NCBI RefSeq assembly: GCF_000969885.1
Contig: NZ_CP009501.1
Coordinates: 2,618,908-2,682,907, forward strand
Direction of reading: 5' to 3'
Source of the DNA: Methanosarcina thermophila TM-1
Lineage (GTDB): Archaea; Halobacteriota; Methanosarcinia; Methanosarcinales; Methanosarcinaceae
Length of the DNA stretch: 64,000 nucleotides
The translations under genes and the position numbers were made by a program. This document shows positions 15,123-23,956 of this stretch, piece by piece. A model generated the notes under the pieces. It made no database searches. It was not told where the DNA came from and saw only the letters and a program-made list of their open reading frames with translations. The stretch's first letter is position 1; each line of letters opens with the position of its first letter.

Positions 15123-15707
15123 TTGAATTTCGATACCGCAGTACAATTTCATGGACATGTTTGCCCCGGGCTCTCCATTGGCTACAGGGTAGCAGTACTT
15201 GCCGCTGAACGCTTCAAAGATCGAAGCAAAGATGAAGAGCTTGTCGCAATTGTAGAAAACCGGTCCTGTGCCGTGGATGCGATTCAGGCAATTAACGGCT
15301 GCACCTGTGGGAAAGGGAACCTTATTTTCAAGGATCACGGGAAACATGTTTACACGTACTTCAAAAGGGGCGATAACAAAGCCCTGAGGATTTCTCTGAA
15401 ACCCGATGCTCTCCCTCAGGACGAAAAGCATATTGCACTCTTTGCAAAGCTTAGAGCTGGTACTGCCAGCTCTGAGGAGGAAAAAGAGTTTAGAGAATCT
15501 CACAACGCAAAAAGCCAGAGAATCCTGGAAATGCCAGAAGAAGAGCTTTTCTGGGTCAGAGAAGTGGAAATCGAACCGCCTGAAAAAGCTATAATTTACC
15601 CAACCCTTATCTGCAGTAAATGCGGGGAAGGTTTTATGGAACCTCTGGGCAGGATAAGAGATGGGGAAATAGTTTGTATTCCCTGTTTTGAGGCAAAAGA
15701 TGAGTGA
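15123..15707 (+). CDS. FmdE-family protein with C-terminal zinc ribbon
   Basis: A 194-residue FmdE-family protein. The N-terminal domain has the family signature FHGHVCPGLSIGYR (His and Cys near residues 9-14) and the second conserved block AINGCTCGKGNL. The C-terminal 35 residues are a zinc ribbon, CSKCGEGF and later CIPC. FmdE was found in tungsten/molybdenum formylmethanofuran dehydrogenase operons; many homologues lie elsewhere and are thought to handle metals or metal cofactors. The start is TTG at 15123, supported by GGAG ending nine bases upstream. The last 8 bases overlap the TrmO gene, so they are probably co-translated. Confidence 0.88.
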   Translation: MNFDTAVQFHGHVCPGLSIGYRVAVLAAERFKDRSKDEELVAIVENRSCAVDAIQAINGCTCGKGNLIFKDHGKHVYTYFKRGDNKALRISLKPDALPQDEKHIALFAKLRAGTASSEEEKEFRESHNAKSQRILEMPEEELFWVREVEIEPPEKAIIYPTLICSKCGEGFMEPLGRIRDGEIVCIPCFEAKDE

Positions 15708-16164
15708 AAATCCAGAAGCATCAGAAGTAATTGAAATGATGCCTATAGGCTATGTAGAAAACGACTACCTTGAACCTGTATACAATGAAGAGGTTTACAA
15801 TAAAGTCTCAAAGGTAATCCTCAGGGAGAAATTTACAGATGGGCTTTACAGGATTGAGGACTTTGAAAAACTGTACATCCTCTTCTACTTCAGTAAATCG
15901 AAAGGATACAAACTCATCCACCGCCGCCGTTACGACGGGGAGATTTCAGGAGTTTTTGCCAGCCGAAGCCCCTACCGCCCTAACGGCATAGGGCTTACGC
16001 TGGTAGAGCTTTTGAAGGTGGAAGGTAACGTTATACATGTAAAAGGGCTTGATGCAATTAACGGGACACCTGTGCTTGACATCAAGCCTTACATAAAAGA
16101 AACTGAAGAAGATGAGGAAGAAAAGACTGAAAAAGAGCCGAGAATTAGTACAGAAAATCAATAA
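15700..16164 (+). CDS. trmO: TrmO-type tRNA (t6A37) N6-methyltransferase
   Basis: A 154-residue UPF0066/TrmO protein, which methylates N6-threonylcarbamoyladenosine at position 37 of some tRNAs using S-adenosylmethionine. The family core is clear: MPIGYVEN at the start of the fold, GVFASRSPYRPNGIGLTLVEL in the middle, and GLDAINGTPVLDIKPYI near the C-terminus, followed by an acidic tail (EETEEDEEEK). A longer frame begins at TTG 15688, but ATG 15700 overlaps the preceding stop in the usual coupled arrangement. The pairing with an FmdE-like gene gives no clear functional hint. Confidence 0.9.
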   Translation: MSENPEASEVIEMMPIGYVENDYLEPVYNEEVYNKVSKVILREKFTDGLYRIEDFEKLYILFYFSKSKGYKLIHRRRYDGEISGVFASRSPYRPNGIGLTLVELLKVEGNVIHVKGLDAINGTPVLDIKPYIKETEEDEEEKTEKEPRISTENQ

Positions 16165-16230: not shown

Positions 16231-19200
16231 TTACATCCTCTTTTTCCTGAATCCCATATAAATTCCTCCAACTGCCACAACAACGAAGAAAATTCCAACT
16301 ATATCAGAGCCTGAGAAAGAGAGACCTCCACTTTCCTCTTCCTTTACAGTTTCTTCTTTCTGCATCTCGTAGCCTTCCACGTAATCGGATTTGGAATTCT
16401 GCCGAACTTCAGGAGCGGATTCTGGAGAATCCATTCCATAGCCTGTATTGGAGTCCTTTGCGGTCTGATTGCTCTCCTGGGATTCCGAACTTGATCTAGC
16501 TGTCTGGTTAAGTTTTTCAGCAACGCTAGTCTGGCGACCTTTGCTGCTGTGGCTGCTGCTCTGAGTATCCGTTGTATCCTTATCGATCTTAGTTGCGGCT
16601 TCTATTTGCTCAGCGTAACCAGGAACAGATACTATTCCACTTACGAACTCGTGGAGCAGAGGATTTCCGCAGGTGTGGTGACAACATGCAGCTCCGTTCT
16701 CAGCCACAGATTCTTCGTATGCTGTTGCAAGGCTTTCAATAACCTCTTCTGAAGGGGTCCAGTAATCATGCCTGATAGTCTCAAGCATCCTGGCAGTAAT
16801 TGACTGGTAAGCGTCCGGGTTATTCTGTTTGAACCATTCTCTCATAGCGGGATCATTGGCATAGGTTTCATACACCTGCTGCCAGACAGTGTCATCTACA
16901 AGATCAGGATCACTTACCTCCCAACCAAAGAGATTATCCACAAATTCGGACATCATGCTACCGCCCGAATATCCGGAGTTTTGCATACCTTCAATCCATT
17001 TGTCATTGAAATATCTGGCTCTAAGATCCTTGCTGAGGTACTCCTGCATTCCTACCATTTCAGCTCTGTCCAGGTCACTTGTATCTGAAATATACATCTC
17101 CGGAGTACTGCCGCTAAGATACCTTGTTGCCAGGTTCATGCCGCCAAAATACTGGAAAAGGTCATCGTTATCAAGGGAGTCGTAAAGGTTTGAAGATGAA
17201 GAATGTACAGAGGCATCAACGCTTTTCAAGTTACCTTCAAGGAGTTCTCTAGACTTTATGCCCCAGAAGTCCTCTCCATAAGCATATCCCATTTTGTCCA
17301 GGTATACATTTGCAATGGCTGCTTCGTTTTCCCATGTACCACTTGCACTGACTGCATCTGCGACTCCTATCTCATAAGTACCATCCATTACTGCAAAGCA
17401 GCGCATTGTGGAGAGTTTTGCTGCCGTCTCACTGTCATATCCTGCAGAAACCAGGGAATCGTATAGCGTAACTGAACTCTGGTTAACATAGTTGGGATAG
17501 TTTACCCCGGGAAGAGAACTCGCAAGTTTTACAGCGCCGTCTACCATTTTTATTTTATCCGGGAAAGCGTCTCTCATTCCTGCAGTAGTGTAAGTGACGT
17601 CAATACGCGGCCTTCCGGGTCTCGAAAGATCATAATTCGGCAATAACTCTTCTTCAGGAATAGCCTCAACTCCGGTTACATACCCGTACTCATCCCAGAC
17701 AGGCTTCATTCCGAGCAGGTAAAGAATTTCGGCTTCCAGGGTTCCGTGGTCTGCAATAAACTCAACTCCAAACCTTGAGAATGAGACCTTTTCAGGATAT
17801 GTTCCATGCTCACTATAGTAGTCCTCAAGTAACTGGATTGCAAGAGATTTTCCAATTTCCCAGGTCGCCTCCGAAGGATAGAGCTTTGAGTTTACACTGT
17901 AATAGTTTCGTCCTGTAGGCACAGCTTCCGGATTCATAATTGGATCTAATCCTGACGCTGGTGGGATGAAGCCCCCGTTAAGGGCTGAAAGTATCCTGTC
18001 AATTTCTACATCACAATCAAGAAGCTGGTCCCTGTATTCCAGACCAAGCTCAAGGTCAAGTGTGACAGAATTGTTGGTCTGCCCGTAGACTTCAAGCTGT
18101 GCAGTGGTAACATTTGTATTATTGGTTACAACTTCCCATACAAGCTGTGTAACTTTTGTGTCATTTAATGGAATTCCGAGAGGATAAGCAGATTCGGGAT
18201 AGAAAGCTGCGGTGATGTTATCCTCAAAGCTTCTTCCGAGCATAGCCCTTACCATTGCAGAGAGCTCATCTTTCTCAGGATCTGTCATGTTCGTTCCTGG
18301 AACACGACTGAGAGTATGCATTCCGTATGGGATATTTTCACCCTCTAAATCTTCCAGATACTCGTGAAGGACATTCTTTACAAAATTATCAAATTCTTCT
18401 TCACTGTAGTTCTGGAGATCAGTTGCGTTTTCCATTCCCAGATCGACACTGAGGTTGAGCGCCGATATCTCGTCGATAATAGCTTGCCTGTATCCTGTCC
18501 TGGTATGAGAAGTAATGCCGGGTTCATAGTACTGCTGGATATTAATTGAAAGGTTCAGCAAGCCTCCGTATAGCCCGCTTCGCTTGAGAGTAGGAGTCAG
18601 GTGATCGATAATAAGGGCGTTACCCCTATACTCAGCGGTTATTCCTTCTCCCACGTTGGCAACTATGTAAGGATATATGTTCGGCAGATCCTGAAGAAGC
18701 AGAGGGGACCAGTCAGAAGTCCTATTCATACCGTAAGTGGGTCCTGGAAGCCATTCATGCGTACCATGAGTCCCCAGGTGAATAATCGCATCGGGCTGCA
18801 ATTCATGGTTTAACCAGAGGTAGAAGGCTATGTACTGGTGTGTAGGAGGTACAACATTGCTGTGATATAGGGTATCATTGTTTTGCCCTGTTCCTCTAGC
18901 AGGTTGAGGCATGAGCCAGACATTCCCGAAGCGCACCGTGGGTATTACGATATATTTTCCGGCTTCATTCTCATAGATCATAACACTCTTCTCTTGAGGC
19001 AGATCTTCAGACCAGGGCTCTCCCCATTCAGCTGTTACATTAGCTCTCAGGTCTTCCGGAATTTCAGACTCAAACCACTCTCTGTAAGTCTCCATGGGTA
19101 TGAGATGCACCCCCCATTCAGTCCTGTTTTCTACCATTTCGTTAAGAACACCCGGAGCCCAGGAGCCTACATTGATACCCTGAGTCTGGAGCATCTCCAG

Positions 19201-20571
19201 AAGAGCGCTGTTATTTTCTGGAATTCCGGAAACTTCATACCCGCTTTCATTCATTGCATTGAGAAGGTCAAACATGCTCTTAGTTGTGTTAAGGTAATTT
19301 GCTACTATGTTGTCCTTTCCTGAAGGATAATTGTAGTAGATGACAGCTACTTTCTTGTTCTGATTATCTTTTAACTTAAGCTCTGCCCAGTTGATAGACC
19401 TGTTTGACATCCAATCAATCTGAGCAGGCAGGGGTTCGTAGTTGCTTTCACCGGTTTCGGAATCATAATTGTCGATTCCTATTACAATATATTCGAAAAT
19501 CCCGTCAATACTCGGGAGCAGGGTTTTGTACACAACCTCATTATTCGGTATGCCCCTGTTGCTATCAGCAACATCAGTAGAATTAGCAGGGTTGTTAACA
19601 ACAAGTCCAGTAAGGACTGGAACATCTAGGTCTGTAAGCTCCTGTACCCCTTTATCAGGGGTTTCGTAATTCAAACGGAAACTCTTAAGAGAAATTACAC
19701 ACTGGACAAGAGGCTCCCCGTTTTCATCAAAGTAAAATTTGTGGATATCGTTGAAAGTATCAAAACCCGCGATTACATTGCAGCCCTTTCCTTCCAGGTC
19801 GCGGATAAGGGCATCTACGACTTCAAGATTGTCTCCGGTATAATCCGAAGCATGGAACCATATCCCGATAGTGGGCTTACTTTTATCATAAACATGTTTT
19901 GATTCATTGAAGTTAGTTAAGTTAGTTGAGTTAGAATACCATTCAAGGTAATCGGTGGTGTTCTCGAACCAGTCAGGCTGGGATTCGTCAGTTGGAGAAC
20001 GGGCGTCAGGATGGTAAAGACCTGCTTCCGGGAAGTCTACTGGATCTTCATAAACCCAGCTGCCTGTAAGTTCAGGTTTGCCTCCGTACGTTTTTGCAAG
20101 ATAAATAAGGAAGTTTTCAGCATTTTTCTTCAGAACTCCCCTTGTACCCATATTGTAAAAGAATTTCTCCTCAGTAGAATTGTATGGTTCGGTTCCGGAA
20201 AAAATTCGGTCATAATTTGAAGTGTTTATATATGTCGTATCTATTGCAGAAGAGATGTCTATGAGAACGGTTCCATTTTCATGAGCTCTTTTAAGGTCGT
20301 CCCCAATTTCTTTGAACTGAGACCAGAGCATGTAGGTAAATATTACATCCTGGTTCTCGAAAGTGACATTACTTAAGTCCGAGTAACCCGAGATATACGT
20401 TACATTTATACTTGCATTGTATGGATTGGACTGCTCTGCCGCAGCAAGAGCGCTCCCATCATAACAGATGAAAGTAATATTTACCTGATTTTCATCAGCC
20501 GATACATTCTGTGCTAGCAGTAAAAAAATCACTGCACATAAAACCAATAATCTACCTTTTTCTGTAAGCAT
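16231..20571 (-). CDS. surface-anchored CobN-like chelatase (HmuS-like)
   Basis: A 1446-residue CobN/ChlH-family protein. The family hallmark HLGTHGTHEWLPG is near residue 597, and the long CobN core continues with SRPGRPRIDVTYTTAGMRDAFPDKI. The N-terminus is a signal peptide (LLVLCAVIFLLLAQNVSA, residues 8-25). The C-terminus has a Ser/Gln/Asn-rich linker (about 1330-1410), one TM (IVGIFFVVVAVGGIYMGF) and RKKRM. Many NxT/NxS sites suit an extracellular glycoprotein. Cytoplasmic CobN inserts cobalt with AAA+ partners CobS/CobT, but none is here and ATP is absent outside the cell. The neighbouring ExbB-, DUF2149- and DUF2162-like genes recall the Bacteroidetes hmu locus, where the CobN-like HmuS acts on haem. 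It probably removes or inserts a metal in a tetrapyrrole at the cell surface; substrate unknown. Confidence 0.88.
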   Translation of the reverse strand: MLTEKGRLLVLCAVIFLLLAQNVSADENQVNITFICYDGSALAAAEQSNPYNASINVTYISGYSDLSNVTFENQDVIFTYMLWSQFKEIGDDLKRAHENGTVLIDISSAIDTTYINTSNYDRIFSGTEPYNSTEEKFFYNMGTRGVLKKNAENFLIYLAKTYGGKPELTGSWVYEDPVDFPEAGLYHPDARSPTDESQPDWFENTTDYLEWYSNSTNLTNFNESKHVYDKSKPTIGIWFHASDYTGDNLEVVDALIRDLEGKGCNVIAGFDTFNDIHKFYFDENGEPLVQCVISLKSFRLNYETPDKGVQELTDLDVPVLTGLVVNNPANSTDVADSNRGIPNNEVVYKTLLPSIDGIFEYIVIGIDNYDSETGESNYEPLPAQIDWMSNRSINWAELKLKDNQNKKVAVIYYNYPSGKDNIVANYLNTTKSMFDLLNAMNESGYEVSGIPENNSALLEMLQTQGINVGSWAPGVLNEMVENRTEWGVHLIPMETYREWFESEIPEDLRANVTAEWGEPWSEDLPQEKSVMIYENEAGKYIVIPTVRFGNVWLMPQPARGTGQNNDTLYHSNVVPPTHQYIAFYLWLNHELQPDAIIHLGTHGTHEWLPGPTYGMNRTSDWSPLLLQDLPNIYPYIVANVGEGITAEYRGNALIIDHLTPTLKRSGLYGGLLNLSINIQQYYEPGITSHTRTGYRQAIIDEISALNLSVDLGMENATDLQNYSEEEFDNFVKNVLHEYLEDLEGENIPYGMHTLSRVPGTNMTDPEKDELSAMVRAMLGRSFEDNITAAFYPESAYPLGIPLNDTKVTQLVWEVVTNNTNVTTAQLEVYGQTNNSVTLDLELGLEYRDQLLDCDVEIDRILSALNGGFIPPASGLDPIMNPEAVPTGRNYYSVNSKLYPSEATWEIGKSLAIQLLEDYYSEHGTYPEKVSFSRFGVEFIADHGTLEAEILYLLGMKPVWDEYGYVTGVEAIPEEELLPNYDLSRPGRPRIDVTYTTAGMRDAFPDKIKMVDGAVKLASSLPGVNYPNYVNQSSVTLYDSLVSAGYDSETAAKLSTMRCFAVMDGTYEIGVADAVSASGTWENEAAIANVYLDKMGYAYGEDFWGIKSRELLEGNLKSVDASVHSSSSNLYDSLDNDDLFQYFGGMNLATRYLSGSTPEMYISDTSDLDRAEMVGMQEYLSKDLRARYFNDKWIEGMQNSGYSGGSMMSEFVDNLFGWEVSDPDLVDDTVWQQVYETYANDPAMREWFKQNNPDAYQSITARMLETIRHDYWTPSEEVIESLATAYEESVAENGAACCHHTCGNPLLHEFVSGIVSVPGYAEQIEAATKIDKDTTDTQSSSHSSKGRQTSVAEKLNQTARSSSESQESNQTAKDSNTGYGMDSPESAPEVRQNSKSDYVEGYEMQKEETVKEEESGGLSFSGSDIVGIFFVVVAVGGIYMGFRKKRM

Positions 20572-20888
20572 CTTATCCCCAGAATAATGTCTAATAAACT
20601 CAGGAGCACCCTGTAAGGAAAATAACTAGGATGCTTAGTCTACTGATGAATTTTTGTTAAAAGTTTGCGAATTTTAGACGCTGACTGCTCTCGATTTTGG
20701 CTTGCAGTTCAAGCCCGGGACTTCCAAAAACTAATAGGCAGCCGATTTTGTATTTCAGACTCAATATTCCGAGCATTGGGGGATAAAATACATAAAACAA
20801 AGTTTTTAGATTATGATTATTAGCCGTTTGGATAAAGAGGTCAGCAAATGGCGTTTTTATTCTATATTATAAATTTTCATATCTCTGA

Positions 20889-20954
20889 AACTCGAAAACA
20901 ATTTCTCAATTGAAAAGTAAAAACTCGAAAACAATCACTCAATTAAAAAGTAAA
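20889..20954. repeat. 33-bp tandem duplication
   Basis: AACTCGAAAACAAT..CTCAATT.AAAAGTAAA occurs at 20889-20921 and 20922-20954 with three differences. It lies about 320 bases upstream of the chelatase start. Confidence 0.7.
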
Positions 20955-21134
20955 AAAGGTAATTCTCAATTTTGAATGTGGCTTCCCACAGGAAATCATC
21001 TCAAAATTTACATGTTAGATCAAACTTAGGAAGCCATTTAACCCTGCTATTGAACTCTGAGTATAGGGCTCTGTGGAGAAGTTCTACCAGTAAAACCTGG
21101 AATAGTGAAAGCAAGAATCAGTAAATATTGGCTC

Positions 21135-21176
21135 CAGGACAGTATAACCACAGTTCAGGACGGTATAACCACAGTT
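21135..21176. repeat. 21-bp tandem duplication downstream of the DUF2149 gene
   Basis: CAGGAC(A/G)GTATAACCACAGTT occurs twice in direct succession with one mismatch. The core GTATAACCACAGTT could be a repeated operator. It ends 22 bases before the stop codon side of the DUF2149 gene. Confidence 0.75.
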
Positions 21177-21198
21177 AAAATACTGTATATATACCAAT

Positions 21199-21603
21199 CT
21201 ACTGGCGGGAACTGTCACTTGAAGAGGACTCCGTTGAAGTAGATATGTTGCCCTCAGAGTCCTCAGGCACATAAATTACTCTGCCGTCGGCAAGCCTATA
21301 AGCCGTTCCAAGAGCTTCTCCAGTCCCCCCTCCTATATTATCGGTCATGTTCATGACCTCAATTGGTTTCCCTTCTTCTTTGATGATGATTTTCATATTC
21401 TGAGCTCCAGGATTTTTGACAATGGTGAAATTCTCGCTGGAACTCAGAAGTTCAGGGAGGTGATATGACATAACAAGCGCAACCAATAGGGCTACAGAAA
21501 AGACCATTGCAACATCAAAAACATTGGCAATGTTGGTCATAGGGTTTTGCTCATCCTCATCTTTTAAAAGCCCTGTCCACCTGTATCTTCTGGATTTTCT
21601 CAT
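21199..21603 (-). CDS. DUF2149-type ExbD/MotB-like membrane protein (HmuV-like)
   Basis: A 134-residue protein with a basic N-terminus, one TM at about 28-45 (VFDVAMVFSVALLVALVM) preceded by NPMTNIAN, and an extracytoplasmic C-terminal domain with a Ser/Thr-rich tail. The layout is that of ExbD/TolR/MotB-type stator partners and matches the DUF2149 family. An aspartate (D30) at the start of the TM could be the proton-binding residue. It lies 33 bases downstream of the ExbB-like gene, which supports a joint proton channel. In the hmu locus of Bacteroidetes a DUF2149 protein has the same neighbours. Confidence 0.82.
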   Translation of the reverse strand: MRKSRRYRWTGLLKDEDEQNPMTNIANVFDVAMVFSVALLVALVMSYHLPELLSSSENFTIVKNPGAQNMKIIIKEEGKPIEVMNMTDNIGGGTGEALGTAYRLADGRVIYVPEDSEGNISTSTESSSSDSSRQ

Positions 21604-21636
21604 GATTTATTCCTCCTTATTAAGAGATGCTGAACT

Positions 21637-22260
21637 TCAGTTTTTCTCCTCAATTGTATCCAGGATATAATCTATGTCTGACATATCTTCCCAATACCAG
21701 CGCCGTCTGACCTGCGTAAGTACATAGCCTATTACAGCCACGAAAAGCCCTACTACGGTTGTCGCAAAGGCAATCATCAGGTTTTGCGCAAGGGTTCCGA
21801 TATCTCCTTTGGAAAGCCCTATCAGGGCAGGACCTAATGGGATAAGCGTTCCCATAAGCCCAAGCATAGGACCGACTGTTGAGGTTATCTTTGTATGCTC
21901 AAGGCGTTTTGCCATTCTGATCTCGTATTCCTGAGAGAGCTTTTCAATTGCTGGAAAATGCCGCTCTTCCAAATATTTTGCAGCATCTCGTGCAAAAGAA
22001 GTGACTATGTAATTTTGTTTGATATTTTTAAGGGCTTTAGACGCCTTCGAAAAATCCGATTTTTTTAGCTCACACTCGATTTTTTTACAATTGGATTCCA
22101 GATTATTCCAGTCCCTGTGCCTTTTTGTATACTCTGAAAGAAATTCTCCTAATTGTACCAAGGAAAGAAATACAAGAAGAGTGAGAAGGAACATTACAGG
22201 GATTAGCAAAGCCGATGAGAGGACATTCATCATAATAGATAATAAACTCATCAGGCTCAC
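21637..22260 (-). CDS. MotA/TolQ/ExbB-type proton channel protein (HmuU-like)
   Basis: A 207-residue member of the MotA/TolQ/ExbB family. TM1 is at about 10-38, a long cytoplasmic loop follows, and TM2 and TM3 are at about 122-150 and 165-190. The family's conserved stretch is visible: VGPMLGLMGTLIPLGPAL, then NLMIAFATTVVGLFVAVIGYVL. Such proteins form ion channels that turn the membrane potential into mechanical force for a partner. The start GTG overlaps the stop of the DUF2162-like gene by four bases; an ATG three codons in is an alternative. Methanosarcina has no outer membrane, so a Ton-type role must differ from that in bacteria. Confidence 0.9.
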   Translation of the reverse strand: MSLMSLLSIMMNVLSSALLIPVMFLLTLLVFLSLVQLGEFLSEYTKRHRDWNNLESNCKKIECELKKSDFSKASKALKNIKQNYIVTSFARDAAKYLEERHFPAIEKLSQEYEIRMAKRLEHTKITSTVGPMLGLMGTLIPLGPALIGLSKGDIGTLAQNLMIAFATTVVGLFVAVIGYVLTQVRRRWYWEDMSDIDYILDTIEEKN

Positions 22261-22949
22261 AGGTCATGCCCCCTTATACGCTCCAGGAAAAAACCTGCAA
22301 AGACAATGACTCCAATAGCCATAAGAGATACAATTTCTGTTTCTACTACTGCAGTTGAAACAAGATTCATACTTTTTGTCTGTATATACGCTGGGATAAG
22401 TAGAGCCCCTAAAAGATAGTAAAACCCTATCAGCATCATTGCACTGCCCATGGTCTCAGGGGTTTTTCCAAATCGAACCTTTCCAAACCTGAAAACAAAA
22501 GAAGAAGCCACTACTGATATAAAAAAAGCAAACCCAATAAGAAATCCTACTTTAATCCCGGAAAGGTTAAGACTTTCTGAAAGCAACAGGCAGGATGCAG
22601 CAAGGGCTGCTAGACAGACCGGGCAGGGTATGGATATAGCGAGGAAAGTGTGCCTGGAAACATCTTTTCCTGAATTCCACTTTTTCTGGGTGTAAATCCC
22701 GGTCATTATAAGAAGCAGAGAAACAAATATATGGATTCCCATGCCCATAGAGTAGAACTTCTCAAAAGCTTCGAGGTTTATTTTATCAATGACGCTTCCG
22801 AATAAAAGGGCTAGAAGAAAATAGCTGCCTCCAACTGCTAAAATTACTCTTGTACTTATGTTTGAAAATCCACATCCTATTCCAGATTTAATTCCAAAAA
22901 CAAGGATACCTACTAAAATACCAATTACAGTTAACATTACAGAGTCCAT
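22257..22949 (-). CDS. DUF2162-type polytopic membrane protein (HmuT-like)
   Basis: About 230 residues with seven probable TMs spread over the whole length, for example TVIGILVGILVFGIKSGIG at the start. A cysteine-containing loop, SIPCPVCLAALAASC, sits between TM3 and TM4. It fits the DUF2162 'predicted transporter' family. The start at ATG 22949 is preferred over TTG 22976, because AAAGGT lies just upstream and the longer form adds a polar stretch before the first helix. It is the first gene of the minus-strand set leading to the ExbB-, DUF2149- and CobN-like genes. A transport role for metal or tetrapyrrole is inferred from context only. Confidence 0.75.
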   Translation of the reverse strand: MDSVMLTVIGILVGILVFGIKSGIGCGFSNISTRVILAVGGSYFLLALLFGSVIDKINLEAFEKFYSMGMGIHIFVSLLLIMTGIYTQKKWNSGKDVSRHTFLAISIPCPVCLAALAASCLLLSESLNLSGIKVGFLIGFAFFISVVASSFVFRFGKVRFGKTPETMGSAMMLIGFYYLLGALLIPAYIQTKSMNLVSTAVVETEIVSLMAIGVIVFAGFFLERIRGHDL

Positions 22950-23410
22950 AATACCTTTTGAGCATCTATAGTGCAATTAAATAAAAATTGGTTTCTGGGT
23001 AATATTTGTTATCTTTCAGGATAACAAGGGCATATGCAGTACACATTTTTAGAATAGACTTTAGCTCGATCCTGTTTTTCTACCTGAGAAAGAGAAGCGG
23101 GTTTAATTAGTTAAACCAGGCACGTGTAAAAGTTAAGTTAGTAAGGTAATAAAATATTTATTCAGTATTTTTTCCTGAACGACATCAGTCGACAATAGTA
23201 ATAAAAATGAATTGTAATTTAGCAAATATTATGCAAGATTTAATTCTGCTTATAGGAGATGATGTAGAAAAAACGAAAAGAAAAATTCATAACTAAAGTA
23301 AATTTGTTAATATTGAGAATAAAAAAAGCAATGAAAAGATCTAATAGTTTACTTTACTTGTTTTAACAAAGGCAATAATTATAAATATTTGAGATTGAAT
23401 AGAGCTCATT
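22950..23410. promoter_or_regulatory. divergent promoter region between the chelatase system and its putative regulator
   Basis: This AT-rich region separates the minus-strand membrane genes from the plus-strand ArsR-type gene. ATTATAAATATTT at 23378-23390 is a TATA box for the regulator, so near that its mRNA would be nearly leaderless. AGTTTACTTTACTTG just upstream and AAAGTAAATTTG about 50 bases further up share an AAAGTAAA core in opposite orientation, a possible operator. Confidence 0.4.
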
Positions 23411-23956
23411 ATGGTAGTAAATGCTATGCGGGATTCTGGAATGAACAGCGACAAAGAAAACCTTTTCAAGGCAGTTTCAAGTAGCACACGCCTCTCAATT
23501 CTCGAACACCTGAGTGAAGGGGATAAGCATATATCCGGTCTGGCAAGAGAGATAGGGATTTCCGTGCCTGTTGCTGCAAAACATGTGAGAATATTGGAAA
23601 AAGCCGAACTTGTAGAAAGAAAAAAAATCGGGAATACACATATGATAGGCATCAAACTGAACAATGTCTATTCTTTTATAGATCACTTTGCAGAAAACAG
23701 GAGGCTTGAGGTTGAGCGTGGTACAACTCTACTTGAAGCTCTGAAAAGCGTGGCTGCAGTAGAAATTAAGAAAATGGGGAATAGAGTCAAGGTTGTCTCT
23801 ATGGATGGAGATGAGGGATTTTATGTATATGAAGTGGATGGCAAATTCTCGAATAAGACGGTAGATGAATATGAATTTCACGAAGATGCCGTAGTAGAGT
23901 GGAAAAAGCTAGTGCCCATAACGAAAAAAAGACTGCTGGTAAGCATCAGAAGGTAA
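23411..23956 (+). CDS. ArsR-type regulator with a DUF4430/transcobalamin-like C-terminus
   Basis: A 181-residue protein. Residues 15-95 form an ArsR-like winged helix (SSSTRLSILEHLSEGDKHI, the recognition helix VPVAAKHVRILEKAELV, then a wing). Residues 125-181 read as a small beta domain: VKVVSMDGDEGFYVYEVDGK, then a VDEYEFHEDAVVEWKKL block. That pattern (YEVDGK, then a polar loop, then D.VEW) is the one I know from DUF4430 domains, found in transcobalamin-type cobalamin-binding and related surface proteins. It is divergent from the CobN-like cluster and is its most likely regulator, possibly sensing the cofactor or metal handled there. The DNA-binding part is firm, the ligand domain assignment tentative. 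Confidence 0.75.
   Translation: MVVNAMRDSGMNSDKENLFKAVSSSTRLSILEHLSEGDKHISGLAREIGISVPVAAKHVRILEKAELVERKKIGNTHMIGIKLNNVYSFIDHFAENRRLEVERGTTLLEALKSVAAVEIKKMGNRVKVVSMDGDEGFYVYEVDGKFSNKTVDEYEFHEDAVVEWKKLVPITKKRLLVSIRR

Follow-up and report, generated by a model that had tools for sequence, protein, structure and literature searches.

Among the described relatives of this locus are the hmuYRSTUV genes of Bacteroidota. Known HmuS proteins carry a methionine-rich insertion of at least 22 residues, and the HmuS authors treat Met79, His254, this insertion and His1209 as family-defining (PMC12583661). The same authors considered the role of archaeal CobN/HmuS homologues unclear and reported that complete hmu operons are lacking in archaea (PMC12583661). 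Exported CobN-like proteins are already known in Methanosarcina. Two such proteins (BtuS) are described in M. barkeri, and the authors report that the operon is lacking (PMC10846266). In the literature searched, no account was found of the archaeal operon described here, of its channel logic or of an operator linking it to nrdDG.

Gene layout and conservation of the locus

The window is a stretch of 64,000 nt from the genome of Methanosarcina thermophila TM-1 (3.13 Mb, single contig). The initial annotation had placed DUF2162-, ExbB/MotA-, DUF2149- and CobN-like genes on one strand, the first two overlapping, and this was borne out. The minus strand of 16231-23956 carries T, a DUF2162 predicted transporter (22257-22949; PF09930, 4e-67); U, a MotA/TolQ/ExbB-family channel protein with a GTG start (21637-22260; PF01618, 3.3e-12, 46.7 bits against a cut-off of 22.9); V, a DUF2149 protein (21199-21603; PF09919, 4.5e-33); and S, a CobN-like, predicted exported protein of 1446 aa (16231-20571; PF02514, 1023.6 bits). 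T and U share 4 nt (22257-22260). In the HMM search that the annotation had proposed, the curated Pfam cut-offs were passed by all four proteins. The reading frame of T is open to 22976, and its start is better set at the ATG at 22949, where ATGGACTCT is kept in nine aligned loci.

The gap between V and S is 627 nt (20572-21198, minus strand), above the 54-200 nt usual elsewhere, so S is only a putative co-transcript of T-U-V in M. thermophila. An Rfam search of 20500-23500, which includes this gap, gave no match up to E = 1. The interval is closed by a plus-strand gene at 23411-23956 that the initial annotation did not describe; it encodes a divergent ArsR-type regulator (HTH_5, 4.2e-9). FmdE-like and TrmO/TsaA-like genes (15123-16164, plus strand) are convergent with S, and the same pair lies downstream in two other loci (L035 and L037).

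Conserved co-occurrence in archaea had been proposed as a check on the four-gene set. Across Halobacteriota, the genes T-U-V(-S) stay linked, far beyond chance. The survey covered 247 Halobacteriota genomes, with DUF2162 counted by profile matches over the cut-off. DUF2149 was found in 79 genomes and DUF2162 in 69, and all 69 were among those 79 (Fisher p = 7e-51; kin genomes were left uncorrected, so independence is overstated). Sixty fetched loci of approximately 10-20 kb were compared with the window, making 61 loci from several families of the phylum, many of them from kin genomes. U lies next to V in all 61 loci, and T-U-V is intact in 53, with a median gap of -4 nt for both T-U and U-V. 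S directly follows T-U-V in 35 loci and lies at most five genes away in 47.

The predicted surface protein S, the U-V channel and T

S is predicted to be located outside the membrane and anchored in it, because it has a signal-like N-terminal segment, a C-terminal transmembrane helix followed by basic residues, and an excess of N-X-S/T sequons (34 versus 14.0 ± 3.5 in shuffles). The other, cytosolic-type CobN of the genome has 3 sequons versus 5.6 expected. These features support the surface location that had been suggested for S. They also give S the profile of a BtuS-type protein, namely a PF02514 protein that is putatively exported, anchored in the membrane and encoded away from cob gene clusters. 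S did not reach the NCBIfam CobN equivalog cut-offs (best 1208 bits against 1619; the others were below too). It falls outside the cytosolic CobN clade (100/100), with weak branching between groups (71/90). The trees split cytosolic CobN, HmuS, and archaeal plus other bacterial S, and their deep branching is weak.

The best PDB match of S was HmuS (9d26, 456 bits). Residues were compared with a B. theta-type HmuS (L093), which at 1463 aa matches 9d26 in length. The HFG(T/A)HG feature of HmuS, with the catalytic His538, is present in S as HLGTHG (residues 598-603; 18763-18780, minus strand), where H602 corresponds to His538. The equivalents of His538 and Glu577 and several cavity residues are retained in S and in most of its relatives. 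The axial haem ligands Met79 and His254 are Leu and Ser in S, and the methionine-rich insertion is missing (in B. theta it spans 119 residues, 21 of them Met; in S, 23 residues align here and none is Met). Where HmuS has LSLDHxxEFMGG with His1209 and Glu1212, S reads LDNDDLFQYFGG (residues 1133-1144; 17140-17175, minus strand), with Asp and Gln at these positions, and this site has the CobN-type active-site acids (DD..Q). A CCHHTCGN motif (residues 1296-1303; 16663-16686, minus strand) is common in archaeal S and absent from HmuS, and is a candidate metal site. The identity of the window S as an archaeal HmuS was rejected, because the HmuS-defining residues tested are absent.

At the active site, a subset of archaeal S proteins (L043, L050, L053, L084 and L085) carries DH. 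In the AU test, which used three of them (L043, L050 and L085), their union with HmuS was not rejected (p = 0.19), and the archaeal DH..E subtype may be the nearest archaeal kin of HmuS. Two loci with the HmuS-like DH, L050:1974-7412 and L053:11350-16935, have the order S-T-U-V, and their genomes hold other U-V loci too. In four other loci (L074, L075, L076 and L087), the S genes of T-U-V operons have HxGTHG replaced (FSIFS). These S proteins are apparently catalytically dead; since some lineages thus have S without the catalytic His, catalysis is not general.

U and V are homologous to HmuU and HmuV (hhalign 1e-52 and 3.6e-40, respectively) and to their counterparts in 75 hmu loci of Bacteroidota. 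V is approximately 50% identical to Bacteroides HmuV. T138 and T168 of U align with the pore threonines of ExbB. V has one transmembrane helix with a near-invariant acid, D30, near the helix start (D or E in 23 of 23 aligned sequences), placed like Asp25 of ExbD. U is the sole MotA/ExbB-type protein of the genome; ion-driven motors of this kind are usually associated with two-membraned bacteria. The ExbD profile PF02472 had no match anywhere in the genome, V included, and TonB was not found in it, which agrees with the earlier proposal of a channel without an outer-membrane partner.

In the alignment of T, P117-C118-P119-x-C121 in a membrane segment, K30 and H82 are invariant (numbering from the 22976 start), a combination that would suit a soft-metal permease. 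A relationship between T and HmuT was not detectable (hhalign probability 20.6), and the HmuT protein had no DUF2162 match. The initial annotation had called the system HmuSTUV-like. This label holds for the S/U/V-type set, which is homologous to HmuS, HmuU and HmuV, but not for T or for the HmuS markers. PDB profile searches with V and with T gave no meaningful match, and structure predictions were poor (pLDDT 52 for T from a single sequence, and 53 for V with a 40-row alignment).

The U-V pair is also found away from S. In L064:6131-9921, and likewise in L051, L054 and L061, it directly follows the gene of an S-layer-domain protein (PF07752, 7e-196), without T or S. In L079:3-9821, L086:2-13125 and L089:2437-9869, where S is also missing, U-V has large surface proteins of the beta-helix/NosD, CARDB or PQQ-repeat type as neighbours. 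These arrangements suggest that U-V is a wider surface-energising module. The four S-layer loci have a glycogen/amylase-like neighbourhood. In L079 and L086, T is extended at its N-terminus, and in L079 the extension is TPR-like.

A shared candidate operator and the cobalt/corrinoid context

A candidate operator, TTGTTATC-N6-GATAACAA, lies upstream of T at 23006-23027 (no strand). Perfect sites occur exactly twice in the genome, before T and before nrdD. The nrdD site lies between nrdD-nrdG and radB, approximately 730 nt from the nrdD start codon. An operator-like site with at most one mismatch was found in 29 of the 31 genomes of the genus. When the best site of each genome was inspected, one per genome, it lay at T/regulator in 14 of the 29, at nrdD in 14 and at neither in 1. 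In L203 and L215, radB is not close to nrdD, a point in favour of nrdD as the target. A leader of approximately 730 nt runs from the operator to nrdD in L186:7157-7890, and an Rfam search of the nrdD leader gave no match up to E = 1.

The genome encodes the adenosylcobalamin-dependent NrdJ (NrdJ_Z, 605.8 bits against a cut-off of 400), and NrdD and NrdG2 are over their cut-offs. PF08471 matched nowhere, controls included, and NCBIfam TIGR02504 was used instead as the class II reductase marker. A reductase large-subunit family of approximately 560 aa was over the cut-off in 28 of the 31 members of the genus. In bacteria with NrdJ, B12 elements or riboswitches precede nrdDG (PMC545781, PMC3848588). 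The shared operator suggests that the T operon and nrdDG form a B12-type regulon, with a putative sensing of cobalamin or cobalt to which the context points.

The divergent ArsR-type protein is probably the natural reader of the repeat. Its C-terminus resembles DUF4430 (8e-5, just below the cut-off), the domain found at the C-terminus of transcobalamin. In other genera, homologues of the regulator lie beside CbiM-CbiQ-CbiO (L231), a BtuF/BtuC/BtuD-type ABC transporter (L234), or NicO and CbiMNQO (L240). Homologues elsewhere adjoin unrelated genes, and the support from context is partial. For comparison, a predicted cobalamin regulon is known in Pyrococcus furiosus, and its regulator is unknown.

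Relatives of the operon are found in cobalt and corrinoid neighbourhoods. On plasmid pGLOV01 of Trichlorobacter lovleyi, a gene for a TonB-dependent receptor is followed by T, U, V and S in the same order as here (GLOV_RS18170-18155 for T-U-V-S), in an island for corrinoid synthesis that also holds a cobalt ECF (cbi-type) transporter. Two tandem cobalamin riboswitches lie directly ahead of this operon (L173:7005-7471, 65 and 107 bits). Its S shares HxGTHGTHEWL, DNDDFFQY and CC-HTC, and its T shares the PCPVC motif. Separate ExbB-ExbD-TonB genes come after the operon, so U-V cannot simply be the driver of TonB in this bacterium. In Azospirillum, a cobalamin riboswitch lies between an S-U-V set and a downstream ABC transporter. 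In two archaeal families (f7 and f17), the neighbours of the operon are CbiM, CbiQ and ABC genes or genes for corrin methyltransferases. A cobalt/corrinoid reading is better supported than a haem reading by context and regulon.

Proposed role, alternatives and known systems

We believe that the locus serves to acquire cobalt or corrinoids at the archaeal cell surface, and we put the probability of this reading at approximately 0.6. S, anchored outside the membrane, would bind a cobalt-bearing tetrapyrrole or another cobalt complex. In M. thermophila, it would probably strip or transfer the metal at its CobN-type site. The U-V channel would use the ion gradient to drive a conformational cycle of S, with release of metal or ligand, and T would carry the released metal inward. 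The ArsR-type protein would repress the operon and nrdDG when cobalamin or cobalt is plentiful. In a cell that lacks an outer membrane, the target of the channel must lie at the cell surface. The constant neighbours of U-V are S and T, and an action of U-V on S/T would be the simplest reading. Passage through the S-layer, which the initial annotation had also suggested, may be an alternative, as U-V stands beside an S-layer protein in four of the sampled loci. Several points count against the cobalt reading. Cobalt is hard to remove from corrins, S lacks the catalytic His in the four loci named above, the DUF4430 match is below the cut-off, and the nrdD operator is distant from the start codon and is flanked by radB at its opposite end. 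A bolder version is possible but doubtful. In it, U-V would be a general surface motor that here powers extracellular CobN-type metal removal or insertion by an ion gradient, taking the role of ChlID/CobST without ATP, and the operon and nrdDG would be a protein-sensed archaeal B12 regulon with a visible regulator candidate.

S might instead be a non-catalytic surface receptor, comparable to a TonB-dependent receptor that has no barrel. It would capture a corrinoid or metal complex, with U-V driving ligand release or passage through the S-layer and with no chelatase chemistry. The S proteins without the HxGTHG His stand beside T-U-V, one of the genomes that encode them (G131) has just one PF02514 protein, and the surface proteins that U-V pairs with elsewhere (S-layer, beta-helix/CARDB and PQQ-repeat) are no chelatases. 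Against this explanation stand the His538 and Glu577 equivalents and several cavity residues, which the window S and most relatives retain; we consider it a serious rival but rather unlikely. S might also free iron from haem outside the membrane, as the dechelatase of Bacteroides does. This reading draws on HmuS as the closest solved structure and on the homology of U and V to HmuU and HmuV. In M. barkeri, the BtuS copies are up when the iron/sulfur source is changed, which fits iron too (PMC10846266). In iron-starved Prevotella, nrdDG and hmu are up together, and this counts against the cobalt reading (PMC10434189). However, Met79, His254, the methionine-rich insertion and His1209 are missing from S, hmuY and hmuR were not found at the locus, and the cobalt/corrinoid contexts and the nrdDG operator point away from haem, so that this role appears improbable.

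The metal might also be nickel, salvaged for example from F430 or other chelates. A plasmid set in Runella sits in a NiFe-hydrogenase maturation cluster, with a HupE/NicO-like permease in the T slot, and nickel versions of the system may therefore exist. For the archaeal locus, nickel is very improbable: the DUF2162-type set of Trichlorobacter lies in a B12 island under cobalamin riboswitches, and sharing an operator with nrdDG has no nickel logic.

One of the closest counterparts of the locus is the T. lovleyi operon, which shares the gene order, PCPVC in a DUF2162 T, and the DD..QY site and CC-HTC in S. It differs in its bacterial host, which has TonB-dependent receptors and an ExbB-ExbD-TonB set of its own, in cobalamin riboswitch control and in an S of approximately 34% identity. 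The Bacteroidota hmuYRSTUV system has homologous S, U and V and a membrane-bound S outside the cytoplasmic membrane (PMC12583661). Unlike the archaeal locus, it has a T that is unrelated as far as detectable, the order S-T-U-V, an outer-membrane receptor, and HmuS residues absent from archaeal S. The BtuS proteins of B. fragilis (PMC6460266) and M. barkeri (PMC10846266) are likewise exported and CobN-like and are thought to salvage metallotetrapyrroles, whereas a linked channel, T, an operator and an nrdDG link are not described in the accessible parts of these accounts. With the locus described here, the archaeal CobN/HmuS homologues gain a conserved operon, a putative energiser and a testable substrate.

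Cytosolic CobN/CobST and ChlHID share the PF02514 fold and the CobN-type active site with S; they are cytosolic and ATP-driven, whereas S is predicted to be exported and its operon contains no ATPase partner. The ion-driven ExbBD-TonB, TolQR and MotAB motors resemble U-V in the U family, the pore threonines and the transmembrane acid of V, but V escapes the ExbD profile, and here there is neither TonB nor an outer membrane. A cell of this kind separates the role of the channel from TonB-driven transport and could reveal whether the chelatase itself is the target of HmuU/HmuV-type channels. In bacteria with NrdJ, riboswitches place the B12-independent reductase under common control with B12/cobalt genes (PMC545781, PMC3848588). 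In this archaeon, control would lie with a repeat in the DNA and probably with a regulatory protein instead, and the nrdDG link would be the archaeal counterpart of B12 riboswitch control.
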